Below the pieces are notes generated by a model. That model made no database searches. It was not told where the DNA came from and saw only the letters and a program-made list of their open reading frames with translations. DNA of 32,005 bases from a virus: positions 1 through 32,005 of IMG/VR virus record IMGVR_UViG_3300017786_002854. One strand, written 5' to 3'. Shown piece after piece: positions 2-21,324 of the stretch. The stretch's first letter is position 1, and every line of letters begins with the position of its first letter. Made by a program: the position numbers and the translations under genes.

Positions 2-1780
2 TCAGACGGAATTGGTGTATGGTGTACTAACTTAGGAAGAACAGAACTTGTTAGTGTGTTCTCATACTACGGACACATTGGTTACTTAGCAGAGAACGGT
101 GGTAAGATTCGTGCTACTAACGGTAACTCATCATACGGTGCATTTGGTACTGTTGCTGAAGGTATTGATAGTACAGAAACACCATTAGGCGGTAACGTTG
201 ATAACTTCGCACTTGAAGCTATTGTTTCAAACGTACTTACAAACGGCGACGATATTCTTACACTAGAATATTTAAACGCTGGTGTTAACTACACACCGGG
301 CGCAACAACTATAACAGCAATTGGTGAAGGTTATGGCGCAGCAATTAACGCAGTCCAAACAGTTAACGGAGGTGTACATGAAGTACGATTAACTGAAACT
401 GTAGAAAGTCCATCAAACTTTGGTGGTGCGGGATATCTTGATGCACAGAACGTTGCACAGTCAGGTAATACTACACAAATAGTAATATCAAATACTGATA
501 CTAGAGTTAACGCTGCATATGTTGGAATGGCAATATACCTTACAGCAGGCGTAGGTGCAGGACAATATGGTTATATTGATACATATAATTCAGGTACAAA
601 GACTGCTACAATTAAAAAGTGTAGCGACGATACAGCAGGTTGGGATCACGTAATTGGAACTGCAATTGAAGCAACACTTAACGAAACAACAACGTATTCA
701 ATTGAACCTAGATTATCATTTACTGCTCCACCAAGTGGATTATATGCAGATACAACAGCAGGTCGTGCAGTTATAGCAGATGGAAAAATAGCTAGAATTA
801 CACTTTGGAACCCAGGTTCGGGCTATTCAAGTGCTCCAACAATGACAGTTACAGATCCAAATAATACTACTGACGTTCCGTTTACTGTTAGAATTGGCAA
901 CGGTGTACTAACACAGCCTACTTGGACAGATAGAGGAACAGGAATGGCAACAGCTAGTGCTACAGTCGATGGCGACGGTTATGCTGATATGTTCCAACCT
1001 GGAAGTTTAGTTAACGTAAGTGACATTGCTACAATGCCACAAGCAGGTGCTAACATAACATTTGCAAGTATACCAAACAAATACTTTAAACTTGTAACAA
1101 TTAGAAATGTATTTGGTTCAGGACCATATACAGCACAGTTCCAAGTAAGTCCAGATATTTCGATATCAGATGCTCCTGCAGATAACGTTGCGTTTGAAAC
1201 ACGCATTAGATATTCGCAAGTACGTCTAACAGGACACGACTTCTTAGACATTGGCACAGGTAACTTTGCTGATACTAACTATCCGAACACTCCAGTTAAT
1301 GCAGTTGATCCAACAAAAGAAACAGTTGTTGGCGGCGGCGGACGAGTGTTCTACACAACCACAGACCAAGATGGTAACTTTAGAGTTGGCGGATTGTTTA
1401 ACGTTGAACAGTCAACAGGTGTAGCAACACTTAATGCTGATGCGTTTAACATTACAGGTCTAAATGAGTTGCAACTAGGCGCAGTTAGCTTAGGTGGAAC
1501 AGGAGCAGTAATTACTGAATTTAGTACAGACGGTACATTTACTGCTAACAGTGATAATATTGTTCCGACACAAAAAGCAATTAAAACTTATATTGCTTCA
1601 CAAATTGGTGGCGGTGCTGGCGAACTAAACGTCAACAGTGTAACAGCTGGTGTTGTTAAAGTGTCAGGACAAGAAATTACTACAACAAATGAAAGTCAGA
1701 TAAATATACTTAATAAGGTTAATTTTACTGGCGGAATAACTGGCTCACCAGTTGCAATAAATTACTTTTTATCATCATAA
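2..1780 (+). CDS. large fibre/appendage-type virion structural protein, C-terminal part
   Basis: The reading frame is open from base 2, so this is the C-terminal ~592 codons of a longer gene cut by the window edge. The GTG at 56 is internal and not a start. The protein is rich in Thr, Gly, Asn and Val, as expected for a beta-rich fibre. It has GxGY-type repeats (AGVNYTPG, PGSGYSSAP) like those in the 2143-aa protein at 11911. The C-terminal half (RYSQVRLTGHDFLDIG, GGRVFYTTTDQDGNFRVG, VPTQKAIKTYI) is a conserved block I recognise from uncharacterised virion proteins of marine T4-like phages. The exact role (fibre, whisker or baseplate appendage) is not known. A structural role is well supported by composition and by neighbouring structural genes. 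Confidence 0.75.
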   Translation, partial: SDGIGVWCTNLGRTELVSVFSYYGHIGYLAENGGKIRATNGNSSYGAFGTVAEGIDSTETPLGGNVDNFALEAIVSNVLTNGDDILTLEYLNAGVNYTPGATTITAIGEGYGAAINAVQTVNGGVHEVRLTETVESPSNFGGAGYLDAQNVAQSGNTTQIVISNTDTRVNAAYVGMAIYLTAGVGAGQYGYIDTYNSGTKTATIKKCSDDTAGWDHVIGTAIEATLNETTTYSIEPRLSFTAPPSGLYADTTAGRAVIADGKIARITLWNPGSGYSSAPTMTVTDPNNTTDVPFTVRIGNGVLTQPTWTDRGTGMATASATVDGDGYADMFQPGSLVNVSDIATMPQAGANITFASIPNKYFKLVTIRNVFGSGPYTAQFQVSPDISISDAPADNVAFETRIRYSQVRLTGHDFLDIGTGNFADTNYPNTPVNAVDPTKETVVGGGGRVFYTTTDQDGNFRVGGLFNVEQSTGVATLNADAFNITGLNELQLGAVSLGGTGAVITEFSTDGTFTANSDNIVPTQKAIKTYIASQIGGGAGELNVNSVTAGVVKVSGQEITTTNESQINILNKVNFTGGITGSPVAINYFLSS

Positions 1781-1795
1781 TGGAGAATATATAAA

Positions 1796-2113
1796 ATGGC
1801 CACAGGAAGATTAGCTGCAAGTGATATAAGCGGCGCTACATTAACAACAGTATATGAATGTCCAGCAGACACATATACCGTTGCATCAATATCAATCTGT
1901 AACAGAGGATCAGAAACATCAAACATTAGCCTAGCTATTGCCGATGGTGCTACACCTGTTAACGGAGAATACATAGAATTTGAAACAGGGTTGTTGTCAA
2001 AAAATATTTTGGAACGTACTGGCATTGTACTTGCTGCTACACAAAAAATAGTTATTTTATCGTCACAAGCTTCAGTGAGTGCTGTAGTTGTTGGCATAGA
2101 AACAGCAGCTTAA
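1796..2113 (+). CDS. small virion structural protein (105 aa)
   Basis: The 105-aa product begins MATGRLAASDISG and contains VYECPADTYTVASISICNRG and an ILERTGIVL segment near residue 75. It is beta-rich with few charges and looks like a single small beta-sandwich. This kind of protein is common in marine phage tail-fibre loci, where it is usually annotated only as a structural protein; that comparison is from memory. It starts 15 bp after the upstream fibre gene, behind a GGAG-containing ribosome site (TGGAGAATATATAAAATG), and ends 27 bp before the adhesin gene, so it belongs to the same transcript. Exact function unknown. Confidence 0.65.
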   Translation: MATGRLAASDISGATLTTVYECPADTYTVASISICNRGSETSNISLAIADGATPVNGEYIEFETGLLSKNILERTGIVLAATQKIVILSSQASVSAVVVGIETAA

Positions 2114-2140: not shown

Positions 2141-3661
2141 ATGGGACGATTTATAGGATTATCAAAAAATAGAGGAAGTGGTCTAGCTATTGAGGATCCA
2201 GACTTTTTAAACTCTGGATTAATACTAACCAGTAACGGAACTGGTTTTGTATTAGCTGGCGGTGCGTCATTAGATCGCGACCCACTTCCTGATTTCATTA
2301 ACGCAAACGAATCATTAAACGAGTCACTTCAAGTTACTGGTGCGTTTGGAGATTCAACATATACATTTGCTTGGAAAGATGGCTCGCAGTACGGTTTAAG
2401 TTTATCATCTAGTGGTACACTAAGCGGCAGTGCAGGCAGTATGCCAGCAGCAACAACACTAAGCATTACAGTTACAGATACAAAATACAATAGGGCATAC
2501 GATGTTGATTTAGAATTTATTGTATCAACAGGTAACACATATCCAAAAATTACAGAAGGTAATAACACTATTACAATATCAGGTGGCGAAACTCACCAGT
2601 TTAGTTATAGTGGTTCACCAGTTGAATGGTCAATTGTTACACGAGGTAACTTGCCAGGCAACGTAACATTATCAAACAGCGGTTTAATGACATTCCCAGG
2701 TAAATCTGGTGATAACACTAATACAAATTACAACTTTACATTAGGTGTACGTAGTAGTGATATGCCAGCAAGCAGCTTTAGAACAGTTTCGTTTAGTAAA
2801 AACTTTTACTTTGAATCAGTTACAGGACAACAACAATATCAAGGTGTTTATGGCCAAGCAGGCGGAACATGTTCGTATAATTGGGTTGCACCTACTGGTG
2901 TAACACAAGTACACGTTATGGCAATGGGCGCAGGCGGCGGTGGTCGTTATTCATGGGCAAGTTGTGGTGGACACGGCGGCGGCATGGTATGGGCAAATAA
3001 TATCCCAGTATCACCGGGTAGTTCATATTGTATCCAAGTTGGACGTGGCGGTTGCTGGAGTGGTTCAACAGGTGGTTGTTCATGCTGGCCAGGAATGAAC
3101 GCATGTGGCGGCTGTTGTGGTTGTTACGGTGGTTGTTTTGGTTTCCCAGGAAGTGTTAACGGCGGCGCAGGAAGCTGTTGTGGAGGCTATGGAATGATAG
3201 CATATAACAACACTGCTGGTGGCGGTGGTGGCGGAGCAGGTTACTGTTCACAAGCACCTGCAAACTCAAGCACATCAAGTCGCAAAGGTTGCGGTGGTGG
3301 AGGTGGCTCAGGCACATCACACCATAGTTCAACATACGGAACAGCTGGTGGCGGCGGAACTGGATCATGCGGAATGTGCTGTTATACATCAAGCCCAACT
3401 AGTTGTGGATGTTGTGGTAACGCAGGTTATTCACACCAAACTGGATCAGGCGGCAATGGCGGCTCAGGCGGAACATGTGGTAATCCAGGTGAACCATGGT
3501 CAAACGGACGTGGACACGGTTATAGCTGTGGTGGAACATTCGGCGGCGGTGGCGGCGGTGGCGGAACGTCACATGGCGGCGGCTGGGGCGGACCAGGTGT
3601 TGTAAGAATCATTTGGGGCAACCAGAGATGCTGGCCTTGCTGTAATACACATAACTTATAA
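2141..3661 (+). CDS. Gly/Cys-rich tail adhesin or fibre tip protein (506 aa)
   Basis: There are two clearly different halves. Residues 1-240 are Cys-free, Ser/Thr/Asn-rich and read as Ig-like beta domains (for example SITVTDTKYNRAYDVDLEFIV). From about residue 243 the protein is a glycine-rich domain with roughly 26 cysteines and 9 tryptophans: CGGCCGCYGGC, CGMCCY, CGCCG, CWPCC, plus runs of 5 to 8 Gly. It enters through VAPTGVTQVHVMAMGAGGGG and closes with GGPGVVRIIWG, the usual frame of phage glycine-rich tail domains. Such domains form polyglycine-II-like sandwiches in T-even adhesins (established for gp38-type adhesins). A receptor-binding tip is inferred. The Cys density is extraordinary for a protein assembled in a reducing cytoplasm. 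A tail-chaperone-like gene follows. Confidence 0.7.
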   Translation: MGRFIGLSKNRGSGLAIEDPDFLNSGLILTSNGTGFVLAGGASLDRDPLPDFINANESLNESLQVTGAFGDSTYTFAWKDGSQYGLSLSSSGTLSGSAGSMPAATTLSITVTDTKYNRAYDVDLEFIVSTGNTYPKITEGNNTITISGGETHQFSYSGSPVEWSIVTRGNLPGNVTLSNSGLMTFPGKSGDNTNTNYNFTLGVRSSDMPASSFRTVSFSKNFYFESVTGQQQYQGVYGQAGGTCSYNWVAPTGVTQVHVMAMGAGGGGRYSWASCGGHGGGMVWANNIPVSPGSSYCIQVGRGGCWSGSTGGCSCWPGMNACGGCCGCYGGCFGFPGSVNGGAGSCCGGYGMIAYNNTAGGGGGGAGYCSQAPANSSTSSRKGCGGGGGSGTSHHSSTYGTAGGGGTGSCGMCCYTSSPTSCGCCGNAGYSHQTGSGGNGGSGGTCGNPGEPWSNGRGHGYSCGGTFGGGGGGGGTSHGGGWGGPGVVRIIWGNQRCWPCCNTHNL

Positions 3662-3691: not shown

Positions 3692-4255
3692 ATGTTTGAA
3701 AACGACGCAGAATTACATACACGCATATTTTATGTTCAAGTAGATTCTAATGGTGACGTAACTGACCCAGGTTATATAGATCCTCAAAACATATGGCATA
3801 TTATGAATAAGTCATGGGATTTTACACATGCAGAAATAACTGCAAAGGGTTATGAGCCAGTTTTAGAATCAAACGCAGTATTTACTAACGGTGAATCAGT
3901 TATTGAAACTACATTTGGCGACATTGTTAGAAATGATGACGGCTTTTTAGTACAAGAATATGACCATGCTGAAATTAGTGAATGGGAAAAAAGACAAAGA
4001 TTTGTAGAACGTACACGTATTAACTTACTATTCCAAAGTGATTGGACACAAGTTGCAGATTCACCATTATCAGATGCTGAAAAAGCAGCTTGGGCTACAT
4101 ATAGACAGGCTCTTAGAGATTTACCAGGTACTTTAGACTATAGTACAATTAGTCAATCAGAAGATGTTAATTGGCCATTTCCTCCGGGAGTGGAAGTACC
4201 AGTAGTAGCAAAAGAAGACGAAGACGGACACGTTCCAGTAGATCAGCCATTATAA
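3692..4255 (+). CDS. tail fibre assembly chaperone-like protein (187 aa)
   Basis: The central segment RTRINLLFQSDWTQVADSP, followed by LSDAEKAAWATYRQALRDLP and a late WPFPP, matches the pattern of the phage tail-assembly-chaperone family (Pfam Phage_tail_APC, PF16778, assigned by memory of the motif). Members often sit directly after the fibre or adhesin gene they help, as here (30 bp after the Gly/Cys-rich adhesin). The N-terminal ~110 residues (FYVQVDSNGDVTDPGYID) may bind the fibre. The tail is acidic (KEDEDGHVPVDQPL). An AAGGA-type ribosome site precedes the ATG. It is the last gene before the cargo operon and its sigma70 promoter. It could instead be a minor structural subunit. Confidence 0.65.
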   Translation: MFENDAELHTRIFYVQVDSNGDVTDPGYIDPQNIWHIMNKSWDFTHAEITAKGYEPVLESNAVFTNGESVIETTFGDIVRNDDGFLVQEYDHAEISEWEKRQRFVERTRINLLFQSDWTQVADSPLSDAEKAAWATYRQALRDLPGTLDYSTISQSEDVNWPFPPGVEVPVVAKEDEDGHVPVDQPL

Positions 4256-4321: not shown

Positions 4322-5911
4322 ATGGCTTTTAAATCAATACTCGTCGTCGGAGGCGGGTCAGCAGGCTGGATGGCAGCATCAACACTTGTAAAAAAGTTTC
4401 CAAATACTAAAATTACTCTTGTAGAAAGTAGCGACATACCAACTGTTGGTGTAGGCGAAAGTACATTAGGTTTTATACGTAATTGGACCACGTATCTTGG
4501 ATTAGATGACAAAGATTTTCTTAAACATACTAATGGTAGTTACAAACTAAGTATCAAATTTACAGACTTTTATGACAAAGATTCCGGCGGATTTCATTAT
4601 CCGTTTGGTAGTGCTTACGAGTCTAGTGGGTTTAATGTTAACGACTGGGCTCTTAAAAAAATATTTAAACCTGACACTCCGGCTAGTGATTTTGCAGATA
4701 ACTTTTGGCCACAGATGGCTCTAGTAAATGAAAATAAAATATCATTAAATGAAGACGGCAAACTAGATAATTATAGATTTGATTACGATACTGCATTTCA
4801 TTTTGATGCTAGTTTATTTGGTCAATACCTTAAAGATCATTACTGTAAGCCACGAGGAGTAAATCATGTAATTGGAACTGTTGATAATATTCTAACTAAT
4901 GATGATGGTATTGAAAAAATTATATTAGAAGACGGTCAAGAACTTAGTGCAGAATTATATGTTGATTGTACAGGATTTAAAAGTTTATTACTAGGCGAAG
5001 CACTTCAAGAACCGTTTAAATCATACAATGATATATTGCCAAACAGAAAAGCATGGGCAGTACAATTACCATATACTGATAAAGAAAAAGAACTTGAAAC
5101 ATATACAAACTGTACAGCATTAGGAAATGGCTGGGTCTGGAATATTCCGTTATGGTCAAGAATAGGTACAGGATATGTTTATTCAGACGAATTTACAACA
5201 GACGAAGAAGCACTACAAGAATTTAAAGATCATCTTAATTCAGACAAAATGAAAGTTTATAATCCTAATAGAGTTACTGATGAATTAAACTTTAGACATA
5301 TTAATTTTAGAACAGGTATACACGAACGCACATGGGTTAAAAATGTACTAGCAATTGGATTATCAGCAGCATTTATTGAACCTTTAGAAAGCAATGGTTT
5401 GTTTAGTGTACATGAATTTATGCTAGAATTTTGTAGTCAAGTAGACAGGCCCAAAGTTACACAATGGGATCGTGATGTATATAACGCAAGTATTAGAAAA
5501 ATATATAATAACTTTGCTGAGTTTGTTGCATTACATTATGCGCTATCAATAAGAGATGATACTGCTTATTGGAGAGCAAATAGAGATAGAGTGTATGATA
5601 ACGACTTAAGACATACTATCAGCGGCTTTAATGATTTATATCTTAGAAAAACTGACGGTAACGCACACTACGGCAACGGTGGCATTAATTGTATTGCAAA
5701 TGGAATGAACTACAATGTGTATAGCGAAATTGATGCAATGCGAGAAGCATTAGGTAAGCAAATAAATCTTCAATATAAACTAAATGAGTTTCTATACGAA
5801 AGGCGTGAAAAAATGAATCAATGGAACAGTGCTGTTAAGAACCAACTTAGCTTACACGACTGGCTATATCAGAATATATATAGTGATGGAGAGTCAAAAG
5901 ATGCAAAATAA
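4322..5911 (+). CDS. flavin-dependent tryptophan halogenase-like protein
   Basis: The 529-aa product has the full architecture of the PrnA/RebH family, which chlorinates or brominates tryptophan (free or peptide-bound) using FADH2, O2 and halide. Visible motifs: FAD-binding GGGSAGWMAA (residues 10-19); NGSYKLSIKF, whose Lys75 aligns with the catalytic Lys79 of PrnA; WVWNIP (271-276), the WxWxIP signature that separates halogenases from monooxygenases; and EPLES, with Glu356 in the place of the catalytic glutamate. Length is normal (~510-540 aa). No flavin reductase gene is visible, so reduced flavin would come from the host. First gene of the cargo operon, overlapping the next gene by 11 bp. 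Substrate unknown; the neighbouring oxygenases and the Trp-rich adhesin make a virion-protein substrate conceivable but unproven. Confidence 0.9.
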   Translation: MAFKSILVVGGGSAGWMAASTLVKKFPNTKITLVESSDIPTVGVGESTLGFIRNWTTYLGLDDKDFLKHTNGSYKLSIKFTDFYDKDSGGFHYPFGSAYESSGFNVNDWALKKIFKPDTPASDFADNFWPQMALVNENKISLNEDGKLDNYRFDYDTAFHFDASLFGQYLKDHYCKPRGVNHVIGTVDNILTNDDGIEKIILEDGQELSAELYVDCTGFKSLLLGEALQEPFKSYNDILPNRKAWAVQLPYTDKEKELETYTNCTALGNGWVWNIPLWSRIGTGYVYSDEFTTDEEALQEFKDHLNSDKMKVYNPNRVTDELNFRHINFRTGIHERTWVKNVLAIGLSAAFIEPLESNGLFSVHEFMLEFCSQVDRPKVTQWDRDVYNASIRKIYNNFAEFVALHYALSIRDDTAYWRANRDRVYDNDLRHTISGFNDLYLRKTDGNAHYGNGGINCIANGMNYNVYSEIDAMREALGKQINLQYKLNEFLYERREKMNQWNSAVKNQLSLHDWLYQNIYSDGESKDAK

Positions 5912-6587
5912 CGAATTGACTGCAAGAAATAAGCAGCTTCCTAATATTGGTGTATTGGAAGCAAAGTTACCTTATGAATTATTTGAAGGGCTATCAAATG
6001 AGATAGAAAGACTAACTACAGAAGGCGGTGCCTTAAAATATAACCATAATTTAGTTGGACATATAGAAGAAGAATATTCTTTAAACCATGTAAAAGATCA
6101 TCTAGAAGAATTTTTAATAGCTATGGCAAGTACATGGCAAGAAGCTAATCCAGGACTAATTGATGCATACGAAGAAGCAGTAAAATTAAAAGATTGGTCG
6201 TTATACTTAGACTCAATGTGGTATAATAAACAAAAAAAGTATGAATTTAATCCATTACATTTTCATTCTGGCGCACTAAGTTTTGTTATTTGGATTAAAA
6301 TACCGTATGAATTAGAAGATGAAATTAATTATTTCCCACCTGTGTGCGGAGTAGAAGATGATGTAGAAGGAAATACATATACATCGAAATTTTGTTTCTA
6401 TTATACTAATTCAATGGGGAGAATAACACCAGCTATGGTTCCTGTGGATAAAACTTATGAAGGAACTATAGTAATGTTCCCATCAGAAATGCTCCATGCA
6501 GTTTATCCATTTTACACATCAGATGATTATAGAATAAGTGTATCAGGCAACCTTAGAATATGTCCGCCAAAGAAAGGTAACAAATAA
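5901..6587 (+). CDS. 2OG-Fe(II) oxygenase-like protein, HxH type (228 aa)
   Basis: I start the gene at the ATG at 5901. A GGAG lies 9 nt upstream and the 11-bp overlap with the halogenase stop is a typical coupling arrangement. The longer frame from 5829 reads through halogenase coding sequence. The protein has the double-stranded beta-helix signature of the family called putative 2OG-Fe(II) oxygenase (TIGR02466-like): NPLHFHSGALSFVIWI with H120/H122 as likely metal ligands, then FPSEMLHAVYPF with H199, and R211 in YRISVSGNL as the likely 2-oxoglutarate ligand. The next gene has the same order of motifs, so the two are probably divergent paralogues. Hydroxylation is the likely reaction; substrate unknown. 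HxH in place of the commoner HxD is typical of this subgroup. Confidence 0.72.
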   Translation: MQNNELTARNKQLPNIGVLEAKLPYELFEGLSNEIERLTTEGGALKYNHNLVGHIEEEYSLNHVKDHLEEFLIAMASTWQEANPGLIDAYEEAVKLKDWSLYLDSMWYNKQKKYEFNPLHFHSGALSFVIWIKIPYELEDEINYFPPVCGVEDDVEGNTYTSKFCFYYTNSMGRITPAMVPVDKTYEGTIVMFPSEMLHAVYPFYTSDDYRISVSGNLRICPPKKGNK

Positions 6588-7232
6588 ATGGAACAGTCAC
6601 TACCAAAAGCAATGACTAATACTATGTTGCTATTTTCAACACCGGTTTATTTGTTTAATGATTATATTGGAGCCGATATACATAATACTCATAGCGAACA
6701 ACAAGAGGTAGTTAAAAATCAAGAAGGTAATTTTTCATCTAAAGAAACTAACATTTTAGAATTAGAATCTTATAAAGTAATTAAAGATAGAATCTTACAA
6801 GGTCTAGACGAATATATCAACGATGTGATGCGTATAGATACAGACAAGCATGAATTTTATATTACACAGTCGTGGTTAAATATTAATCCGCCGGGTACTA
6901 GTCATCATAGACACAATCATTCTAATTCAGTTATTAGTGGAGTATATTATATTGACACTACAGAAGACAACAGTATAACATTTTCTTCGCAAAATCAAAC
7001 TAATGTTACAAGTTTGCCTATGTTAAAAATAGATGTTAAAGAGTATAATATAACTAATTCAAATAGCTGGAATATTCCAGTACCAACAAACAGCATTATA
7101 TATTTTCCTTCATCAACACTGCATGAAGTTAGCCCAAATGAATCAAACCAAAACAGAATAAGTTTGGCATTTAATGTATTTGTCAAAGGCAACTTTGGTA
7201 ATGAAGCAAATCTAAATCAATTACAGTTATGA
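6588..7232 (+). CDS. 2OG-Fe(II) oxygenase-like protein, TIGR02466-type (214 aa)
   Basis: SWLNINPPGTSHHRHNHSN, VISGVYYID and FPSSTLHEVSPNESNQNRIS match the pattern of the TIGR02466 putative 2OG-Fe(II) oxygenase family, common in marine T4-like phages. Likely metal ligands are in the H106-H111 cluster (probably H109/H111) together with H179; R190 is the probable 2-oxoglutarate anchor. The start codon follows the previous stop directly (TAAATG), so translation is coupled. Length is normal for the family. It follows a paralogue-like gene and precedes the glycosyltransferase, which fits hydroxylation of a residue or metabolite before or alongside glycosylation (inference). Substrate unknown. Confidence 0.8.
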   Translation: MEQSLPKAMTNTMLLFSTPVYLFNDYIGADIHNTHSEQQEVVKNQEGNFSSKETNILELESYKVIKDRILQGLDEYINDVMRIDTDKHEFYITQSWLNINPPGTSHHRHNHSNSVISGVYYIDTTEDNSITFSSQNQTNVTSLPMLKIDVKEYNITNSNSWNIPVPTNSIIYFPSSTLHEVSPNESNQNRISLAFNVFVKGNFGNEANLNQLQL

Positions 7233-7240
7233 GAGACTAA

Positions 7241-8188
7241 ATGACAAAAACTAAAAGAAGTACAGCATTTTACATAAACGGCGGCATCGGAAGAGTTATA
7301 TGTGCAATACCTGCATTAGAAAAGTATAGCAAACTTAATCCAGATGACGACTTTATAATATTTTCAGAATTTCAGTATGAGGCATTTTCAGGACATCCTA
7401 TATTACATAGTAGATCTTATCCAACAAATTCACCGCATTTATTTAGAGACAAATTAAAAGATAGAAATGTTGTTATACCAGAACCATATGCTGTGTGGGA
7501 ATACTATAATCAAAAATGTAGTATTGCACAAGCATTTGATATTATAATTAATGGAAAACTTGACAAAGATCTAGGGAAACCAACTATTAATTTAAGTATA
7601 GATGAATTAGTTACAGCACGTAGTATGATAGAAGATATGCGTAGCCAACGTGGAACACCATTGTTTATTTTTCAGCCGTTTGGTAGAGGAATTACAATGC
7701 AAGCAATACAAAGCCCAGCTGGACCAATTGATACATCAGGTAAATCATTTACTATTGAAGGTGCAGCAAAATTAATAAAATTAATTGAGCATAAGTATTC
7801 TATATTAATGATGAACGAATTTAATGTAGAATTTAAAAACTTTGGTGTTAAAAATGATGTGTTCTTTGTTGAAGATGTTAACTTACGAAAGTGGTTTGGA
7901 CTACTGCATGAATGTGATGCATTTATTGGGTGCGACTCAATAGGACAACACATTGCAAATATATACGATAAACCAACTTACTTAGCACTAGGATCTACTT
8001 ATCCTGAAAATGTAACATATCCGGATAACAAAAACTTTACAATATTTGATTTTAATAAAGACAACAGAGTATATAGTCCGATACGTATAACAGTTGATGA
8101 ATATCCAGACAGACAAAATGAACAAGCAATGACTTTAACAGATGAACAAATAGAAGAAATTGCAAACAAAATATTAAACGATATATAA
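7241..8188 (+). CDS. GT-B glycosyltransferase, GT9/heptosyltransferase-like
   Basis: The 315-aa product begins with a glycine-rich loop, NGGIGRVICAIPALEKY (residues 13-29), equivalent to the GxGDxLxxxPal entry of ADP-heptose:LPS heptosyltransferases. Around residue 231 it has CDAFIGCDSIGQHIAN, matching the C-terminal family motif (A)DxxIGnDSGpxHlA. Family members transfer heptose from ADP-heptose onto LPS core or protein. It is shorter than E. coli WaaC/WaaF (~320-350 aa) and the acceptor side may be trimmed. The context is striking: the same phage encodes ADP-heptose synthesis on the other strand, and the next gene is a carbamoyltransferase. Donor specificity is inferred, not shown. It could act on another sugar nucleotide. 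Confidence 0.7.
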   Translation: MTKTKRSTAFYINGGIGRVICAIPALEKYSKLNPDDDFIIFSEFQYEAFSGHPILHSRSYPTNSPHLFRDKLKDRNVVIPEPYAVWEYYNQKCSIAQAFDIIINGKLDKDLGKPTINLSIDELVTARSMIEDMRSQRGTPLFIFQPFGRGITMQAIQSPAGPIDTSGKSFTIEGAAKLIKLIEHKYSILMMNEFNVEFKNFGVKNDVFFVEDVNLRKWFGLLHECDAFIGCDSIGQHIANIYDKPTYLALGSTYPENVTYPDNKNFTIFDFNKDNRVYSPIRITVDEYPDRQNEQAMTLTDEQIEEIANKILNDI

Positions 8189-8206: not shown

Positions 8207-10030
8207 ATGAGTAAACAAGATTTTTGGGTATTAGGTATTTCTAGAGGACATAACGCAGGTGCGTGTCTACTTAAAAATGGCAAAATTATATTTGCTATTG
8301 AAGAAGAAAGACTAAGTCGTAAAAAATATGATGGCGGTCCTTTTGCTGCTATGGTAAAGGTATTAGACTATACTGATAGAATTGATTATATGTTTATATC
8401 ACACACTCAAGATTTAGAAGGTGGACCAAGAGTTGACTTTACCGGAGATGATGTATATACAGGACTAGCACGTAAATTAGGATTAATAGACCCGCAAGGC
8501 GAATTGCCAAAACATCCACAAGTAATTGACCTAAGTCATCAACATCATAAAATACACGCAGCATGTGCATTTTATCGTTCAGGGTTTGATGATGCTGTAG
8601 CAGTTGTTGTTGATGGATCAGGATCTGTAATGGAAGCAGACTTTTGTTTTGATCCAAAATATAATGAATCAGACGTTATTAGATCTGGAATGTGGGAAGT
8701 CGAATCGTACATTGATTGCAAATACCCAAGTACATTTAATCACTTGTACAAGCACTCTGGAACAAAAGATGCAATACTAACGACCATAGATCTAACTCGA
8801 GATGCTGAAGATATATTTGGAGAAAAGGGTAATACATTTCATAGCGTACTATCTAGAAATGCAGGCATTACTAAAACATACGAAGCAGTTACAAAATATT
8901 GCGGATTTCAAGAAATTGAAGCTGGCAAAACTATGGGATTATTTCCATATGGTAAACCTAACGATAACATACCAAAACTATTTACAAAAGTTGGTAATTA
9001 TGAATTATCAGATCCAAATGTTATTGTTCCGTTTTACCCAAGAGGTGCCTTAGTAAATGCGCAGTTGTATGACGAACTAAACACTAAGTTAGGTGCTAAA
9101 GGTGATGTTACAACAGAGCAGAATCGTAGAGATCTTGCTTATGCTGTACAAACTGAAACACAAGATCAAGTGTTAAATCTTATTCTTAAAGCAGTAGAAG
9201 TAAGCGGCAATAAAAATGTAGTGTTGTCCGGCGGCTATGCATTAAACTGTGTTGCAAATTATTACTACCTTACTAAATTAAAAGAGCTTGGAATTAATTT
9301 ATATGTTGAACCAGTATCAAATGATGGCGGCACAGCAATGGGTGTAGCACTACTAGGATTTCATACAATAACACAAAGTAGTGAAAAGTTAAATGATCGT
9401 GAAATATATTTAGGATTTTCATATGATTACAGTGACAACGATATTAATAAAATAGCTGAAAAATACGGAGCAGTTGTACAAGATGCAGATGATAATACAG
9501 CAATTGAATTAATGACTAGTAAAAATATTGTTGCATGTTTCCAAGGTAGATCAGAAGCAGGACCACGTGCATTAGGTAATAGAAGTTTAATGTTTGATCC
9601 AACATTTGAAGATGGAAAAGACTTTGTTAATCAAATTAAAAATAGAGAATATTTTAGACCATTTGCTGGAAGCATACTAGCTGAAGATGTACATGAATGG
9701 TTTGATTTACGCGGTATGGAAGATAGTCCGCATATGATGTATGCAGTTTCTTGTCAGCCTGGCATTGCTGAAAAGATTCCTAGTATTATTCATGTTGACG
9801 GATCATGTAGAATACAAACAGTAACCGAAGAAGATAATCCTTTATATTATAGAATTATTAAAAACTTCAAAGAAAAAACAGGAGTTCCAATTATTTTTAA
9901 TACAAGTTTTAATCTAGGCGGCGAGCCATTAGTTGAAACTCTTGATGATGCATTACGTACACTAGCACAAAGTAAAATTGAATACTTATACTTGCCTGAG
10001 TACAATAAATTATTGACTGTGCGTAACTAA
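8207..10030 (+). CDS. O-carbamoyltransferase, NodU/CmcH/TobZ family
   Basis: The 607-aa product shows the complete two-domain family layout. N-terminal part: GISRGHNAGACLLKNGKI and AIEEERLSRKKYDGG, then a His-rich motif HQHHKIHAACAFY (about residues 112-124) and VVVDGSGS near 135-142, an ASKHA-like ATP/carbamoyl site. C-terminal part: QGRSEAGPRALGNRSL (from about residue 446), REYFRPFAGSIL and FNTSFNLGGEP. Family members (NodU, CmcH, TobZ) move a carbamoyl group from carbamoyl phosphate, via carbamoyl-AMP, to sugar or antibiotic hydroxyls. Length is near normal, and no motif is missing. Its place directly after a heptosyltransferase-like gene suggests a sugar acceptor. Carbamoylated L,D-heptose is established in Pseudomonas aeruginosa LPS core. 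The stop overlaps the next start by 1 bp (TAATG). Confidence 0.9.
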   Translation: MSKQDFWVLGISRGHNAGACLLKNGKIIFAIEEERLSRKKYDGGPFAAMVKVLDYTDRIDYMFISHTQDLEGGPRVDFTGDDVYTGLARKLGLIDPQGELPKHPQVIDLSHQHHKIHAACAFYRSGFDDAVAVVVDGSGSVMEADFCFDPKYNESDVIRSGMWEVESYIDCKYPSTFNHLYKHSGTKDAILTTIDLTRDAEDIFGEKGNTFHSVLSRNAGITKTYEAVTKYCGFQEIEAGKTMGLFPYGKPNDNIPKLFTKVGNYELSDPNVIVPFYPRGALVNAQLYDELNTKLGAKGDVTTEQNRRDLAYAVQTETQDQVLNLILKAVEVSGNKNVVLSGGYALNCVANYYYLTKLKELGINLYVEPVSNDGGTAMGVALLGFHTITQSSEKLNDREIYLGFSYDYSDNDINKIAEKYGAVVQDADDNTAIELMTSKNIVACFQGRSEAGPRALGNRSLMFDPTFEDGKDFVNQIKNREYFRPFAGSILAEDVHEWFDLRGMEDSPHMMYAVSCQPGIAEKIPSIIHVDGSCRIQTVTEEDNPLYYRIIKNFKEKTGVPIIFNTSFNLGGEPLVETLDDALRTLAQSKIEYLYLPEYNKLLTVRN

Positions 10031-10536
10031 TGAAAACATTTGACAAATTTTTACCCGAGTGGTTACATAAAAAAGTTGTAGATCAACTATTAAGTCCGCA
10101 ACTTGATTGGCACTTTCCTAGTTTCGGAGGCCTAGCTACAAATATAGAAAAAAGTAGCTTTGCAAAGCAACCGTTTAATTTAGCAACCAATACATTTGAT
10201 TTTAATGGAACAGATTCATTAATGTATGCACTCGATTGCTGGTTAGATGAAAATCAAAACATCTTCCAATTAGATCATCTACATAGGTGTATGATTAACT
10301 TTTATACACCTGGTCAAAATACAGGTTGGCATCAAGATATGGTTGAACCTGGATATTATAGTCTATTATATTATGTAAACGATGCAGATGGCGGAACTAA
10401 ATTTGATGATACTGAATTTGTGCATAAAGAAAATTCTGCTTTAATGTTTGATTGCAGACTAAATCATAGTCCTATATCTAGCACAGTTCCTAGACGCATT
10501 AGTGTTAATTGGATCATGAAAGGCAAACTACTATAA
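10030..10536 (+). CDS. 2OG-Fe(II) oxygenase, HxD type (168 aa)
   Basis: This is a compact prolyl-4-hydroxylase-like/2OG-FeII_Oxy fold: NTGWHQDMVEPGYYSLLYYVND with H101 and D103, then NHSPISSTVPRRISVNW with H146 as third ligand and R155/R156 as candidates for 2-oxoglutarate binding. It differs from the two HxH-type proteins upstream and so is a separate lineage. It is translationally coupled to the carbamoyltransferase (1-bp overlap, TAATG) and is the last gene of the halogenase operon. A late-promoter motif for the next structural gene begins only 3 bp after its stop. Such small oxygenases are frequent in marine T4-like phages and their substrates are largely unknown. Protein or metabolite hydroxylation is inferred. 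Confidence 0.82.
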   Translation: MKTFDKFLPEWLHKKVVDQLLSPQLDWHFPSFGGLATNIEKSSFAKQPFNLATNTFDFNGTDSLMYALDCWLDENQNIFQLDHLHRCMINFYTPGQNTGWHQDMVEPGYYSLLYYVNDADGGTKFDDTEFVHKENSALMFDCRLNHSPISSTVPRRISVNWIMKGKLL

Positions 10537-17900: not shown

Positions 17901-18342
17901 AGGTGCTAAAGCAGGTACACCGTTAAGTGATGCAGGCGGTAATCCGACTAACCAAAGTGATGTTAGTTTCCCTGCAAACGTTGCTGTATCAAGTGTAGAA
18001 GGCCCGCACTTATTTGGTAGCGGCGGCAGTCAAATTTCGTATTATAAAGTGAACTTTAACAGTTCATATACTGGTACAGTTAGCCCAGGTGATGTGTTTA
18101 ACTTTGAATTTAGTCAACCACCATATGCACAGCCGGGTGAGACAGTGTTCTCATTCATTGCTGTACCGGGCGAACGTTCAACACTATCATTAGCTGAGTT
18201 GAAAGAACTTACAAACACTCCACTAGGTGGTAGAGGAACATTCCCAAATGGTCCAGACGTGTTAGCTATTAACATTTATAAAGTGAGTGGCGATCAGCTA
18301 AAATCAAACATACTACTTAAATGGGGTGAAGCGCAGGCTTAA
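11911..18342 (+). CDS. giant fibre/appendage structural protein (2143 aa)
   Basis: Largest gene in the window. The N-terminus carries KNYVFKPGIGANDNRYPNAY and then YNEAKCQRDVGYIIDAYLTD with LRYGGN, blocks I recognise in large uncharacterised virion proteins of marine T4-like phages. Residues ~430-1150 are Thr/Gly/Asn-rich beta repeats, five of which share a GxGYxxGDxhxhxG...GGxxPxNDhxVTh pattern (see repeat entry). Residues ~1300-1800 hold a non-repetitive globular part (SFFIHRPYDGGVQLG, GAQAIRQSKKYIRYQSGKG, IGIQYSWYGAGFIDFMLRG). The C-terminus contains TLSLAELKELTNTPLGGRG. No enzymatic motif was seen. A long side fibre, whisker or baseplate-to-fibre component is inferred. Its stop overlaps the convergent gmhB stop by 4 bp. 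Confidence 0.75.
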   Translation: MAKTQIKNYVFKPGIGANDNRYPNAYALLSANKEFIQKESTAWIAAQVAANVSGFVGYTYNEAKCQRDVGYIIDAYLTDLRYGGNETVINNIKYYWDQDVAQVDGDRQPEIQTHTWIGNLIKDNIFPQVAYSAVNTEVTQDLSGTASEPLQQFTPTNGTYKPDTGVMSLTIGTHTLSVGDEIFIAPGAVTFTCALDGNATLHPYPRASGVPNATGKDGFYYAPLEITAVTSTTITVNVGVSSDTSLHTFNTATANGVTAGPNAKINTLAFNTVDTITNGLGGLPKKIYLGVGNVKIQGKWQSNELLLITNTITNEIIYNFGSATQGGVVSIQDYGIDTDFLKFLETTDGVTTVKLNYSTTGHSATDDLQIFVEEREVRTRPFDFGTDAIERGRTAEPKSMLDADFEYGLQPTKWSAIGTLRGYPSVYEIPGTDTEVTLVVTDASTGSEGVGQSLITVTTQGPHGFVAGDPITIKALENSITGAARAEGSFIINATPTTSTFNFYAKAKVGTANGEILTTTYTQLRKAGFYTGANVGTANFTIQSNGSNGVMNAQLNIPTGATIIPFDGPAPEVGSPLTNGNIPVGSQVTGIIDTSGGGGTYITPAITETVNPGENRVYLDDVTGVLANLSADKGNGDAINISTVGANYIDFDGNFSSTLVPNKKTYTGVAASNVNPTGTSATFDITLDQNAERSYTVTVNTAGTGYANGDRITIDGLNAGGTTGTNNIIITITAVTAGGGVSTFSHTGVHWDGSLSITDTTATPQGGTGTGALLDVNWTAGNFSSVAIASSATDSGYAVGDVIKVLGSALGGIDETNDLSVSVVAVGGTGDITSLTYAGASPSVINNYGNVSQIGYVQLPITNITQASPAVITVADTSQLTNGQFVTISDVVGMTEINAQGVYVNVINSTTFSIFTDPTLSTNYDSSAHSSYTSGGNATRAGGPNATYSGSTGEFASLTITNGNGFYAVSVDNGGQNYLPTETFTVTGDKLGGTSPANDATVTFDNVSGTGEITVASITGTGSTDGEALAVSGSNRQGLGATFDVSIVSNNYVVALNNAGTLYNANQELKILGTFLGGATPANDLTITISAVDALTTGVITTINSAGTTATPGGTFTDVAGLNNVPVGSSATFTVAKNFAVYDTVSAANAGTGYAIGDRLTVAGNLVDGATPSNDIDVTVSTVGAGGEIETVTHTGTGAPGSNLDLISTILMSQASTAPIAITEAISYSALATLEITFANAHGFVPGDSFITTVTSDDGSNNHALASGSFFATDIPDINKLRYTARAPGAIDASTEIISGIVYPRPDSFFIHRPYDGGVQLGTGGPQHGAQAIRQSKKYIRYQSGKGIMYTTGALFAPSYDLANVTADGVEVGSTITVTTDDNDHGVQVGGIVRLLGVQTPGYNSGTQTAVPPNFDYEVIDVIDERSFQVRSQRRLGSTTAVLGFGAQMSVVSWHGATVRSGIFDDQNGIYWEYDGTNVQVCQRTSTKQISGTITMQPNNNEVIGVGTRFREQLKAGDRVVIKGMTHVITNVISETELSVSPDWRGVGTISGAKMNLVVDKKAKQKDFNLDTLDGNGPSGYDIDIAKMQMIGIQYSWYGAGFIDFMLRGSDGNFVFCHRMRNSNVNTEAFMRSGNLPVRYEVTNEGPPGKLASAMTIDQNTIVLEDASFFPDWGTVYIDNEVMSFDARSGNTLTGVVRAASLTNFQAGADRIYNGGVAATHAAATGVVLISNTVTPLISHWGSAFITDGGFDEDRGYIFSYAETGITVSTTRQTAFMLRLAPSVSNAIVGDLGERELLNRAQLLLQGLEITSDGIDPDNSNAPITGGVIVEGVLNPQNYPLNPGDVNWAGLSGVAQGGQPSFAQIASGGGISWNSGDTATYTTAAVMPKATTTATLMPWWNFRTNRNYGYFTQASWELANLEVGDLISDGAGGGDYFPGGTAIQSIFDQTQYGRYLVYFTQRPNANSGNGVNQTFEKGGNSSNGSFAYFTESVWNATGAKAGTPLSDAGGNPTNQSDVSFPANVAVSSVEGPHLFGSGGSQISYYKVNFNSSYTGTVSPGDVFNFEFSQPPYAQPGETVFSFIAVPGERSTLSLAELKELTNTPLGGRGTFPNGPDVLAINIYKVSGDQLKSNILLKWGEAQA
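14002..15473 (+). repeat. five degenerate protein-level repeats in the 2143-aa protein
   Basis: Five copies of a ~40-residue unit lie near 14002-14118, 14272-14390, 14811-14950, 15067-15190 and 15334-15473. Examples: AGTGYANGDRITIDGLNAGG, DSGYAVGDVIKVLGSALGG, GQNYLPTETFTVTGDKLGG, GTLYNANQELKILGTFLGG and AGTGYAIGDRLTVAGNLVDG. Each is followed by a [T/S]xxNDxxhTh strand. DNA similarity is patchy, so the duplications are old; copies 4 and 5 keep the best DNA match (GGAGCAACGCCG in both). They probably form stacked beta modules along a fibre. Confidence 0.75.
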
Positions 18343-18989
18343 AGCGTTTCCATGTAATTTGCAAAAGAATTAAGATCATCAAATACGATGGTCTTTTTCT
18401 TTATGTCACGGTAAGAAAACTTGTTTAACTCTTTTTCAGTTTGCTTGCCATATCCTGTACGAACTAACACAGGTTTTGCACCTAATTTAAATGCAGCTTT
18501 TAGATCGCTCATTTTATCGCCTACATAGTATCCTGTTTTAAACTTAACGTGCGGGTGTTCTTTTTCACATCGTTTAAACATTCCAAGATTTGGCTTTGCC
18601 CATTCGTCATTTTTTCTGCTGCTCATACTATAATATATTGCATCAATACTAGGACATCCCGCTTCTCCTAATAAATTAAACATATGGTTATGTACATTGT
18701 CAACATCATACTGTGTAAACAATCCTTTTTCAATTCCGCCTTGATTAGTAATTATAGCTATTTTATGTCCGAGTATACGTAATTTAGCAATTGCACTTAA
18801 ACTATTTTCAATAGGCTGAAAGTCTTCTGGACGATATGTATAAGTGCCTCTATCAACATTAATAACACCATCACGATCAAGACCTATTACACACTTAGGT
18901 GCAATATAGCCTTCTTTCATGTTTACTTCTTTAGGTGTTATTTTTTGAGGCTGTGCTTTAGGTTGTCCCCATTGATAAACACTAGCCAT
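18339..18989 (-). CDS. gmhB: D-glycero-beta-D-manno-heptose-1,7-bisphosphate 7-phosphatase-like HAD enzyme
   Basis: I choose the ATG at 18989 (MASVYQWGQP), which overlaps the cupin stop by 8 bp; the longer frame to 19046 runs through cupin coding sequence. Product 216 aa. HAD motifs: GLDRDGVINVDRG (nucleophile D38, acid D40), TNQGGIEKG, KPNLGM and VGDKMSDLKAA. The order and spacing match GmhB, which removes the 7-phosphate (1-phosphate in other variants) from heptose bisphosphate. The segment that carries the zinc-binding Cys/His cluster in E. coli GmhB is replaced by YYSMSSRKNDEWAKPN without cysteines, so this copy probably lacks the metal loop. There is an N-terminal extension of ~30 residues. 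Last gene of the cassette. A histidinol-phosphatase-like specificity is possible, but hldE and hldD make GmhB likelier. Confidence 0.82.
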   Translation of the reverse strand: MASVYQWGQPKAQPQKITPKEVNMKEGYIAPKCVIGLDRDGVINVDRGTYTYRPEDFQPIENSLSAIAKLRILGHKIAIITNQGGIEKGLFTQYDVDNVHNHMFNLLGEAGCPSIDAIYYSMSSRKNDEWAKPNLGMFKRCEKEHPHVKFKTGYYVGDKMSDLKAAFKLGAKPVLVRTGYGKQTEKELNKFSYRDIKKKTIVFDDLNSFANYMETL

Positions 18990-19380
18990 CTGTAGGTGCA
19001 GTTCGTTGCGTGTCACCAGGTGCAACACGATAATTATCTTCAACACTGTCTGGTGTTGATACTTCAGTAATACTTGAGTCTGCTTTCATGCAAATTAATC
19101 TATGTGGTTGCAATGGAGGATTGTGCCAAACATCGCCTTCATTTAATTCTTGTTCATGAAGTCCTGCTGTTGCAGTGTCAATCCATTGTACTTTAAATTT
19201 GCCACTATTTACAAACCAAGTTTCATCTTTTTCTTTGTGAAAGTGCATTGAAAACATTGCCCCTTCTTTTTCAAAGAACATAATTTTACCACAATATTTT
19301 TCATTAGTAGCCCAAATTAATTCGTATCCCCATCCTTTAGGCACAACACCACTTAGTCTAGTTGGTTCGTTATTTTCCAT
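18982..19380 (-). CDS. cupin-fold sugar-isomerase/epimerase-like protein (132 aa)
   Basis: A single cupin domain: motif 1 FSMHFHKEKDETWFVNSGKF (HxH, then Glu, then Gly) and motif 2 GDVWHNPPLQPHRL with the second His. The opening GWGYELIWATNEKYCGKIM resembles the small mannose-6-phosphate-isomerase-like cupins found in sugar-nucleotide clusters. It overlaps hldD by 11 bp and gmhB by 8 bp and so is an integral part of the heptose cassette. Possible roles are isomerisation or epimerisation of a heptose or hexose intermediate, or metal-dependent sugar binding. The sequence does not decide among them. It cannot be called GmhA, which is a SIS-domain protein, but it could in principle substitute for a missing isomerase step (inference). 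Confidence 0.72.
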   Translation of the reverse strand: MENNEPTRLSGVVPKGWGYELIWATNEKYCGKIMFFEKEGAMFSMHFHKEKDETWFVNSGKFKVQWIDTATAGLHEQELNEGDVWHNPPLQPHRLICMKADSSITEVSTPDSVEDNYRVAPGDTQRTAPTDG

Positions 19381-20188
19381 TAATATAATCCTCTATGTTT
19401 GTCCATTGCATGTCAACTACACTATTTAAATTAGTTAAGTCAGCACAAGTATATTCCTGGTATTGTGACTTTATGTTATCTGGCATCGGTATGTAATGTA
19501 TACCGGCAGTATGCTTTTTAGCAATAGTCTGTGCTACATTTTCAAAACTTGTAGGATTACTAGTACCTACATTAAATACACCTGATTGATCTACGTCGAA
19601 CATTTTTTCATGTAGTTTACATATATCATCTATACAAACAAAGTCTCTAAGATATTTGTCACTGCCTTCAAATAGTGTAATTAGTCCATCTTCTTTAGCT
19701 TGCTTTGTAAACTTAGAATACGGACTTGCTTGATCACCTTTGTGTTCTTCACCTTCGCCGTATACATTAAAATATCTAAATCCTTGTATTTTAATTTCAA
19801 ATTCATTTATATATTGATTTAGAAATCTGTCAAACAAATACTTTGACCATGCATAAGGAGACTGAGGTAATAATGGTCCATTTTCTGTAAAATGTGTAGT
19901 TGGTCCGTAAACACTTGCACTTGATGCGTATTGTAAATTAGTGCCAAAGTTTTCGCATACTTGCGCTAGTCTTACACTAAACTCAAAATTCTGTTCTAGT
20001 ATTTGATTTACATCTGTGTATGTAGTTGAACTAATTGCACCTAAGTGTATACACCAATCGTATCCTTCAGTATGCGGAAGCACACCTGGTTCCCATTCCC
20101 AACCTTCTACTTCGTGTCCTTGTTGTTGCAAATAGCTTGCAACATTTTTACCAATAAATCCTTGGTTTCCTGTAACTAATATTTTCAT
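19370..20188 (-). CDS. hldD: ADP-L-glycero-D-manno-heptose 6-epimerase-like SDR protein
   Basis: The 272-aa product is an extended short-chain dehydrogenase: NAD(P) loop VTGNQGFIGKN at the N-terminus, SSASVYG, and the catalytic YAWSK (Y112, K116). The C-terminal half carries signatures specific for HldD rather than general sugar epimerases: FRYFNVYGEGEEHKGDQASP, LFEGSDKYLRDFVCIDD, and IPMPDNIKSQYQEYTCADL with TNL, closely paralleling the E. coli protein (HKGSMAS, LFEGSENFKRDFVY, IPFPDKLKGRYQAFTQADL). It is ~40 aa shorter than E. coli HldD (310 aa), mainly in the N-terminal half. It converts ADP-D-glycero-D-manno-heptose to the L-glycero form, the last step of the pathway. The start overlaps the hldE stop (ATGA). 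Confidence 0.88.
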   Translation of the reverse strand: MKILVTGNQGFIGKNVASYLQQQGHEVEGWEWEPGVLPHTEGYDWCIHLGAISSTTYTDVNQILEQNFEFSVRLAQVCENFGTNLQYASSASVYGPTTHFTENGPLLPQSPYAWSKYLFDRFLNQYINEFEIKIQGFRYFNVYGEGEEHKGDQASPYSKFTKQAKEDGLITLFEGSDKYLRDFVCIDDICKLHEKMFDVDQSGVFNVGTSNPTSFENVAQTIAKKHTAGIHYIPMPDNIKSQYQEYTCADLTNLNSVVDMQWTNIEDYINGK

Positions 20189-21324
20189 TTACTTTTCTCT
20201 ATAATCTGTGTTGTTGAATAACCGTCTACAGTAGGTACAATATACACTTCTGCTAAATCGTGTCCTACAACAGTTTCAACAATATAATCTCCGCCTTTAA
20301 CAATTAAATCAGGCTGTATATGTTTAATTAACTCATAAGGAGTATCTTGTTCAAAAACGTGAACTTCATCTACCCACGGTAACATTTCTAATTGTTTTAC
20401 ACGTTTGCCTAAATCATTGATAGGTCTATTTTCGCCTTTTAATCTCTGTACACTTGCATCTGAATTAACAGCAACAATAAGTTTATTACCAAGTGATTTC
20501 GCCGTTGCTAATAGCTCAAAATGACCCGTGTGTAGTATATCAAAGACTCCGTTAGTAAATACTACACGTTCTTCAATATCGTTTATAGTAAGCGTATATG
20601 TACCTGAATGCTTAACACTTTCAGTAGAACCTATAACTGCTAATTTTAAACATTTTTTGTATTCATAGCCTTTTGTAAGACCATAAACAAATGCTGCTAA
20701 GAAACAATCACCTGCACCAGTAACATCTGACACTTCTAAATTATCAACAGGTATTTCATATTTCACACCATCGATAGTTGCAATAACTTCTTCACCGGCA
20801 TTAGTTGTAATAATATTGCCTTGCCAGTCATCAAACCCTAAGTCGTGAAACTCGTTGTAATTAGGTTTTACTAACCAGGCATTTTCGTAGAACCAAGCAT
20901 TTTCTTTTGGATCAACAATTACTTTACAACCGTACTTGTTAATGTGTGCAATGATATCTTTTGCTTCGTCTAATACGCCTTTGTTGTAATCACTTAACAC
21001 AACATAATCATATTGAGAAAAATCAGTTTCTTGTACTTGTTTTAGTACAGCCATTCCGCTTGCTGAAGCATCATCATCAATACGTGTAACATAATGTCCG
21101 TCACAAATTACTCTAGTCTTAACACTAACTTGACCTTGTGTTTCAAACATATCAACATCAACGCCTAAACTTTTTAAGTTTTCGTATACAAGACCTGCGC
21201 CGCCTCTTGTTTCTTTTTCATCAATATAAGTTATTACCGGCACTGGTGCTTCAGGACTAATGCGACTACTAGTCCCATATATGTATTTGTCGATAATTAC
21301 GTCACCAAGAACTAATACTTTCAT
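20185..21324 (-). CDS. hldE: bifunctional heptose-7-phosphate kinase / heptose-1-phosphate adenylyltransferase
   Basis: The 379-aa product fuses both HldE (RfaE) domains. Kinase part (1 to ~250, PfkB/ribokinase type): LGDVIIDKYIYG, RISPEAPVPV, GGAG, VDPK, KPNYNE and TGAGD (G203-D206, catalytic Asp). Adenylyltransferase part (~253-379): TNGVFDILHTGH (HxGH, H265-H268), VAVNSDASVQRLKGENRP, VKGGDY and the C-terminal GYSTTQII. All core residues are kept. The kinase domain is ~70 aa shorter than in E. coli HldE (477 aa in total), so it is a compact version. It phosphorylates heptose-7-P at C1 and later adds AMP. The ATG lies only 7 nt after a consensus -10 box with no Shine-Dalgarno, so the mRNA from its own promoter would be nearly leaderless. 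Confidence 0.92.
   Translation of the reverse strand: MKVLVLGDVIIDKYIYGTSSRISPEAPVPVITYIDEKETRGGAGLVYENLKSLGVDVDMFETQGQVSVKTRVICDGHYVTRIDDDASASGMAVLKQVQETDFSQYDYVVLSDYNKGVLDEAKDIIAHINKYGCKVIVDPKENAWFYENAWLVKPNYNEFHDLGFDDWQGNIITTNAGEEVIATIDGVKYEIPVDNLEVSDVTGAGDCFLAAFVYGLTKGYEYKKCLKLAVIGSTESVKHSGTYTLTINDIEERVVFTNGVFDILHTGHFELLATAKSLGNKLIVAVNSDASVQRLKGENRPINDLGKRVKQLEMLPWVDEVHVFEQDTPYELIKHIQPDLIVKGGDYIVETVVGHDLAEVYIVPTVDGYSTTQIIEKSK

Follow-up and report, generated by a model that had tools for sequence, protein, structure and literature searches.

What purpose halogenases, carbamoyltransferases and genes for heptose synthesis serve in marine phages is a question raised in compact form by a 32,005-nucleotide virus record from IMG/VR (IMGVR_UViG_3300017786_002854; hereafter the window), in which such genes lie downstream of a tail-fibre adhesin packed with cysteine, glycine and tryptophan. 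Tail sheath and tube genes further along the window indicate a contractile-tailed phage. Here we examine how the composition of this adhesin relates to the enzymes encoded beside it, and whether the two are associated in other phages.

A cysteine-packed fibre tip beside a cassette of enzymes

The features of the window that bear on this question are as follows.

56-1780, plus strand: tail fibre protein, the upstream partner, its frame open to the window edge (phrog_9851, E 3.5e-60)
1796-2113, plus strand: small conserved fibre protein (MATGRLA...) between fibre and adhesin (phrog_11338, E 2.3e-8)
2141-3661, plus strand: Cys/Gly/Trp-rich tail-fibre adhesin, 506 aa (phrog_4474, E 1.2e-17, and homologues)
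2825-3658, plus strand: distal Gly-rich domain of the adhesin, residues 229-506, 26 Cys (tip alignment, AF2, VIA)
3692-4255, plus strand: tail-fibre assembly chaperone (PF16778 Phage_tail_APC, E 1.1e-15)
4322-5911, plus strand: flavin-dependent tryptophan-halogenase family protein (PF04820, E 2.9e-104; phrog_2928, E 4e-143)
5829-6587, plus strand: 2OG-Fe(II) oxygenase (PF13759, E 3e-10; phrog_81)
6588-7232, plus strand: 2OG-Fe(II) oxygenase (PF13759, E 4.6e-20)
7241-8188, plus strand: GT9-fold (ADP-heptose heptosyltransferase-like) protein, phrog_8954 (AF2, Foldseek, VIA, motif)
8207-10030, plus strand: NodU/TobZ-type carbamoyltransferase (PF02543, E 3.6e-25; PF16861, E 2.3e-58; phrog_1601, Nol-like carbamoyltransferase)
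10030-10536, plus strand: 2OG-Fe(II) oxygenase-like protein (PF13640, E 7.6e-5, below cut-off)
18339-19046, minus strand: GmhB-like heptose-1,7-bisphosphate phosphatase of the HAD type (NF006506, E 1.7e-38, below cut-off)
18982-19380, minus strand: small cupin (PF07883; phrog_7851, E 3e-37)
19370-20188, minus strand: ADP-glyceromanno-heptose 6-epimerase-like (HldD-like) protein (TIGR02197, E 4e-67, below cut-off; PF01370)
20185-21324, minus strand: HldE-like heptose-7-P kinase / heptose-1-P adenylyltransferase (NF008454, E 1.8e-84, and TIGR02199, E 2e-47, both below curated cut-offs; PF00294 and PF01467)

A small ORF like that at 1796-2113 occupies the same place in L234-L237 and in the isolates P-SSM2 and S-CAM1. 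The first oxygenase ORF (5829-6587) is listed with a GTG start, at which it overlaps the halogenase gene; its true start probably lies further downstream. The halogenase has the expected motifs, GxGxxG as GGGSAG at residue 10 and WxWxIP as WVWNIP at residue 271, and belongs to the same family (PF04820) as VirX1 of cyanophage Syn10, which in vitro accepts a range of aromatic compounds for halogenation (PMC8407142). The window halogenase also matches the profiles of QhpG and LodB, more weakly and below cut-off, at E 1e-12 to 1e-10. These two proteins modify Trp within peptides for quinone cofactors of the Cys-Trp type.

Composition and conservation of the tip. The adhesin falls into two parts. 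Its N-terminal module, which starts MGRFIGLSK, contains no Cys and 2 Trp in residues 1-242, whereas the 264 residues from 243 to 506 contain 26 Cys, 9 Trp and 85 Gly. By homology the tip domain begins at about position 2825, slightly before the Cys-rich stretch. An earlier note on this DNA had described a polyglycine-rich adhesin domain with about 26 Cys and 9 Trp from residue ~243 and no Cys before it; the ORF count agrees exactly, the glycine content bears out the polyglycine character, and each of the motifs that the note had picked out (CGGCCGCYGGC, CGMCCY, CGCCG and CWPCC) is present. The tip contains CxC, CC and CxxC clusters, and the other proteins of the window have 0-9 Cys each.

As a control set we assembled 120 loci by a motif scan for the common tip GxG[AV]VRIIW. 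The 103 control tips that were read out hold 0-6 Cys per ~264 residues, with the single exception of L136, which has 16. Since homologous Gly-rich domains from 100 other viral loci are this poor in Cys, the density in the window is not a product of chance. Ordinary marine low-Cys tips (e.g. L227, L144, L184) share the frame WxAPxGV...GGxGAVRIIW with the window tip (A2 profile) but differ from it in Cys content. Relative to 90 low-Cys homologues, Cys is enriched 9.8-fold, His 7.9-fold, Met 3.8-fold and Trp 2.5-fold, and Asp is depleted 5-fold.

Homologues of the adhesin in IMG/VR are 67-96% identical over the whole protein and 70-95% identical over the tip domain. An alignment of the window with three diverged homologues shows 21 of the 26 Cys columns and 8 of the 9 Trp columns to be invariant, compared with 68 of 153 non-Cys, non-Gly residues (Fisher p = 6e-4, phylogeny ignored). 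A second group, collected by profile and motif, carries the window's tip type on other fibre backbones (L019, L042, L052, L082, L087, L089, L095 and L136). In a joint alignment of 17 tips, Cys 275, 305, 326 and 328 are present in 17/17, and Cys 315, 332, 384, 425 and 463 in 16/17. Free variation of Cys among homologues, which the earlier note had named as a counter-indication, is therefore not the pattern found; most positions are conserved. A tblastn search of 50,697 phage records with the whole adhesin and with the tip domain returned nothing useful and no isolate whose tip is of the window's type; masking of low-complexity sequence, which takes out the Gly-rich part, is probably one cause. 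A pattern scan for the tip in bacterial genomes found none. As a separate observation, the protein at L042:18272-20596 (minus strand) has a second Cys-rich stretch, CCQCLSCGCGFCMCFQCIC, right before its Gly-rich tip, and CSVCANTTVACC forms a part deeper in the fibre.

A probable distal fibre tip of the Pam3 type

Sequence profile searches of solved structures with the tip alignment gave no match, so that a comparison of folds was needed. The window ORF has no match to Gly_rich_2 (PF21722) at E 0.1. The AF2 model of the tip, built from a 17-row alignment, has a pLDDT of 54 overall, with the first ~100 residues best and the rest poor. With this low-confidence model, the top structure in VIA-align was the Pam3 fibre 7ypx (Z 13.8, rmsd 3.2, 169 residues, 28% identity), followed by the Bxb1 tail-tip protein 9d93 (Z 10.9) and the glycine-rich domains (GRD) of ALK/LTK (Z 7-8). 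The published account of the Pam3 fibre gives it a TNF-like domain and, at the distal end, a glycine-rich lattice as the proposed receptor-binding part, and describes a chaperone that is a trimer (PMC9608196). From this ranking and this description, the domain is most likely a beta-sandwich with polyglycine loops that forms the distal tip of a fibre, in line with its earlier designation as an adhesin. Structure prediction, which had been proposed as a check, thus yields a Pam3-type fold but, at pLDDT 54, no usable Cys geometry.

The likeness to Pam3 gp24 (7ypx) extends to the gene order, since gp24/gp25 and the window both have the fibre chaperone encoded next door. The two systems differ in that the text of the Pam3 paper does not contain the term cysteine, and the passages of it drawn on here describe no modification cassette (PMC9608196), whereas the window has both a Cys-rich tip and a cassette.

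Cysteine-rich tips are coupled to the GT9-fold and carbamoyltransferase genes

The earlier note had proposed comparing the Cys content of Gly-rich domains in phages with and without the halogenase gene, and this comparison was strongly positive. A PF04820 halogenase is present in 19/22 records with a Cys-rich tip and in 0/48 records of low-Cys homologues (Fisher p 2e-14; phylogeny is ignored, the loci are related, many of them near-duplicates). The 19/22 comprises 18/21 Cys-rich records together with L136, and the 3 misses are all contigs of at most 26 kb. Most records of the second tip group have several PF04820 matches each. L233 (G010), L234 (G011) and L108 (G002) each have 3-5 halogenase-family genes around one Cys-rich adhesin on one contig, some of them divergent and of a ~400-aa or ~490-aa type.

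The halogenase is nevertheless not the general partner of Cys-richness. Loci fetched by the halogenase only are mostly without the rest of the cassette and without a Cys-rich tip, and we rejected that explanation. The wider partner is the GT9-fold protein together with the carbamoyltransferase. We kept 80 of 473 loci from a fetch by the GT9-fold gene (7241-8188). In nearly all of these the carbamoyltransferase adjoins, and the halogenase is seldom present. With a threshold of at least 9 Cys per 100 residues, Cys-rich proteins were found in 71/80 of these loci and in 57/59 of those with at least 8.5 kb of upstream sequence. The other two of the 59 are truncated downstream. L277 and L311, two GT9 loci that lack a Cys-rich protein, are probably no true exceptions, because both end before the site at which their sibling L312 has its Cys-rich protein. 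In the other search direction, starting from the carbamoyltransferase and with a threshold of at least 8, a Cys-hyper-rich Gly-rich protein was found in 64/80 loci and in 53/53 of those that are untruncated. Many loci with the GT9-fold and carbamoyltransferase genes but no halogenase still have Cys-hyper-rich tip-like proteins. Conversely, any cassette gene at all occurs in 5/120 control loci (L115, L132, L136, L209 and L216), and a Cys-rich protein is present in 5/5. Cys-rich tips are thus coupled to the cassette in both search directions.

Coupling extends to small proteins and to other folds. GT9 loci typically have 1-3 Cys-rich proteins of 240-400 aa, whose densest stretch reaches ~11-21 Cys per 100 residues. 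The small Cys-rich proteins share a common frame (WTVPxG...ELWGGGG...GAGGLV); 3/3 tested match phrog_4205, 2/3 tested match Gly_rich_2 (PF21722) at ~E 1e-4, just under cut-off, and their alignment matches the profile of the window tip in hhalign with E 1.3e-5 over 78 columns. Among their invariant nucleophilic side chains almost all are Cys, and none is Ser. Tandem families of phrog_4205 proteins adjoin the GT9-fold and carbamoyltransferase genes on many phage contigs, among them L242, L248, L293, L312 (14419-17384), L360 and L378. L312 and L314 each combine a Gly tip with 0 Cys near the GT9-fold gene with three Cys-rich proteins. Cys-richness is thus a property of the individual protein, and base composition as its cause is rejected by this co-occurrence.

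Enrichment in Cys is also seen near cassette genes on other backbones: in a 774-aa fibre in L042, in RCC1-like repeat proteins interrupted by a Cys-dense insert (L029:13288-14643 and L032:16035-16820, the latter on the minus strand), which lie near halogenase, GT9-fold and heptose genes, in a YadA-like repeat in L216, and in a further fold, without assignment, in L024, L025 and L073. A number of other Cys-rich matches were judged unrelated by eye: L117 (ferredoxin-like), L140, L166/L181/L185/L203 (which look like antisense frames), and L040 and L064/L065/L079/L080 (zinc-ribbon or HNH-like).

A GT9-fold transferase with an altered active site

The AF2 model of the GT9-fold protein (41 sequences) has a pLDDT of 86.7. 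Foldseek ranks WaaF, a GT9 protein, TibC and WaaC highest, and VIA gives Z 19-23 against WaaF/WaaC/TibC/GT9, with the next fold at 12. Recognition of this relationship required fold comparison, as a sequence search of solved structures with the alignment gave chance matches only; the Pfam GT9 profile PF01075 scored 12.9 bits on the window protein (E 0.068) against a cut-off of 22. In hhalign, the GGxGR motif of the window protein, found in every complete N-terminus inspected, falls on SSMGD of E. coli WaaC, such that the catalytic Asp (WaaC Asp13, TibC Asp110) corresponds to Arg18, which is invariant in 41/41 aligned sequences. Because the catalytic Asp is replaced by Arg, the acceptor chemistry may differ; the substitution could equally signify a changed or lost activity.

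A close parallel is TibC/AAH (BAHT; adhesins TibA and AIDA-I). The window enzyme has the same GT9-type fold, the window has genes for synthesis of the ADP-heptose that TibC/AAH use as donor, and its proposed substrate is likewise an adhesin. TibC places heptose on serine residues of adhesins, with Asp-110 as the catalytic base (PMC4358343), whereas the window enzyme has Arg at the equivalent position. The substrates of TibC/AAH are beta-helical autotransporters; the window has none, and instead has a phage Cys-rich tip and an added carbamoyltransferase.

As to the sugar donor, the HldE-, HldD- and GmhB-like genes at 18339-21324 point to ADP-heptose in the window phage, by profile matches that all lie below curated cut-offs. 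By a search for close homologues only, HldE-like genes lie within 10 kb in 13/80 GT9-ascertained loci, and the donor may therefore be another sugar in many phages. The small cupin encoded among these genes belongs to a family (phrog_7851) that is a companion in 24/80 GT9-ascertained loci and is labelled 'cysteine dioxygenase' in isolates; a WbuC-type cupin is another weak match.

What the enzymes may act on

The coupling is tight across backbones and folds, and it is read most simply as action of the enzymes on the Cys-rich tips. The occurrence of the cassette beside Cys-packed tips in many phages suggests that the host-touching part of the virus is chemically decorated. From this neighbourhood evidence, we place at roughly 0.6 the probability that a decorated, receptor-facing tip is the substrate of the adjoining GT9-fold and carbamoyltransferase modification system. 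Modification by the enzymes of the following operon had been among the earlier suggestions; the coupling supports it, with the emphasis shifted from the halogenase to this broader pair.

We infer substrate, sugar, acceptor residue and binding role according to the following scheme. The tip would fold in the reducing host cytoplasm, probably with the chaperone from the adjoining gene, while the phage ADP-heptose synthesis genes would feed the GT9-fold enzyme. This enzyme would add a sugar, probably heptose, to tip residues, plausibly Cys (S-linked), and the carbamoyltransferase would cap the sugar on the tip. In the window lineage, the halogenase and the 2OG-Fe(II) oxygenases would be accessory, acting on Trp or on other side chains. 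Binding to the host surface would then be through the decorated tip. Linkage to Cys is a tentative part of this scheme, which we judge less likely than not. Three points suggest it: Cys, not Ser, covaries with the cassette, small tips have no invariant Ser, and the general base that the enzyme has lost would be less needed by a thiol acceptor; bacterial glycosyltransferases that S-glycosylate Cys are known from glycocins (PMC6405829). The full combination of phage S-glycosylation, in which an Arg-variant GT9-fold enzyme places heptose on Cys thiols, followed by a carbamoyl cap and lineage-wise halogenase or 2OG marks, is a possibility that we view with considerable doubt.

It is unlikely, in our estimate, that the cassette instead alters the surface of the host (LPS heptose or core), for instance to keep other phages out, with the Cys being structural and unrelated. 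The published assignment of heptose genes in large cyanophages as LPS genes (PMC3037559) and the inclusion of the LPS heptosyltransferases WaaC and WaaF in the GT9 fold are consistent with such a role, and the tip gene could adjoin the cassette since both concern the host surface. This would leave unexplained why tip Cys density follows the cassette (0/48 vs 19/22; 57/59; 53/53), why only some tips are Cys-rich in phages with both tip types, and why unrelated folds turn Cys-rich beside the same genes.

The remaining alternatives account for the Cys but not for the enzymes. A disulfide-locked tip, as the earlier note had envisaged, in which oxidation of the Cys in oxic water once the cell has lysed would staple the polyglycine loops, fits an extracellular tip that is rich in loops and has 26 Cys, most of them invariant. 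As a full explanation it is disfavoured, and we consider it quite improbable, given the odd Cys counts in homologous tips (25, 27, 23, 21 and 13) and in 59/106 non-redundant small Cys-rich proteins, the gain and loss of single Cys positions, and the coupling to enzymes that it does not address; some disulfides could form beside modified Cys. The enrichment of Cys, His and Met, the depletion of Asp and the CxC, CC and CxxC clusters would suit a candidate metal-binding tip, with Zn, Cu or Fe lending stability or mimicking a metal or siderophore ligand of the host receptor. We regard this as very doubtful, as it leaves unexplained why a glycosyltransferase-fold protein and a carbamoyltransferase are coupled to the tip, and the pLDDT 54 model yields no metal-site geometry.

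The same arrangement in cultured cyanophages

If the tip is the substrate of the cassette enzymes, host recognition in many aquatic phages would depend on post-translational chemistry, which goes unseen when receptor-binding proteins are predicted from sequence. The near-invariable partnership with a Cys-hyper-rich tail-tip-like protein makes this testable on the cultured phages S-CAM1, P-SSM2 and S-SSM7. Each of these phages encodes, between its tail fibre and its GT9-fold gene, 2-3 hypothetical proteins that contain 25-36 Cys, and the GT9-fold gene is followed by the carbamoyltransferase and ADP-heptose genes. The Cys-rich proteins have the locus tags SXBG_00224-226 in S-CAM1, SSSM7_114-116 in S-SSM7 and PSSM2_304/306 in P-SSM2, and tblastn searches with the Cys-rich proteins of S-CAM1 and P-SSM2 gave matches only in phages carrying the GT9-fold gene.

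The cyanophage 'LPS' clusters (P-SSM2, S-SSM7; T4-GC 302-308) thus contain GT9-fold, Nol-like carbamoyltransferase and heptose genes as in the window, and they lie directly 3' of Cys-rich hypothetical proteins. Sullivan et al. (2010), who described the heptose genes as LPS genes, left open whether they are functional or 'stuffer DNA'; the published reading is LPS biosynthesis, and cysteine is absent from the main text (PMC3037559). If the S-glycosylation reading is true, these 'LPS genes' would be adhesin-modifying genes, and the surface with which the phage binds its receptor would be chemically decorated. The single-cell viruses AG-345-O18 and AG-345-P14 have Cys-rich proteins of their own. 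In AG-345-O18, a 758-aa protein with 73 Cys (L323:5021-7297) is encoded near GT9-fold and heptose genes.
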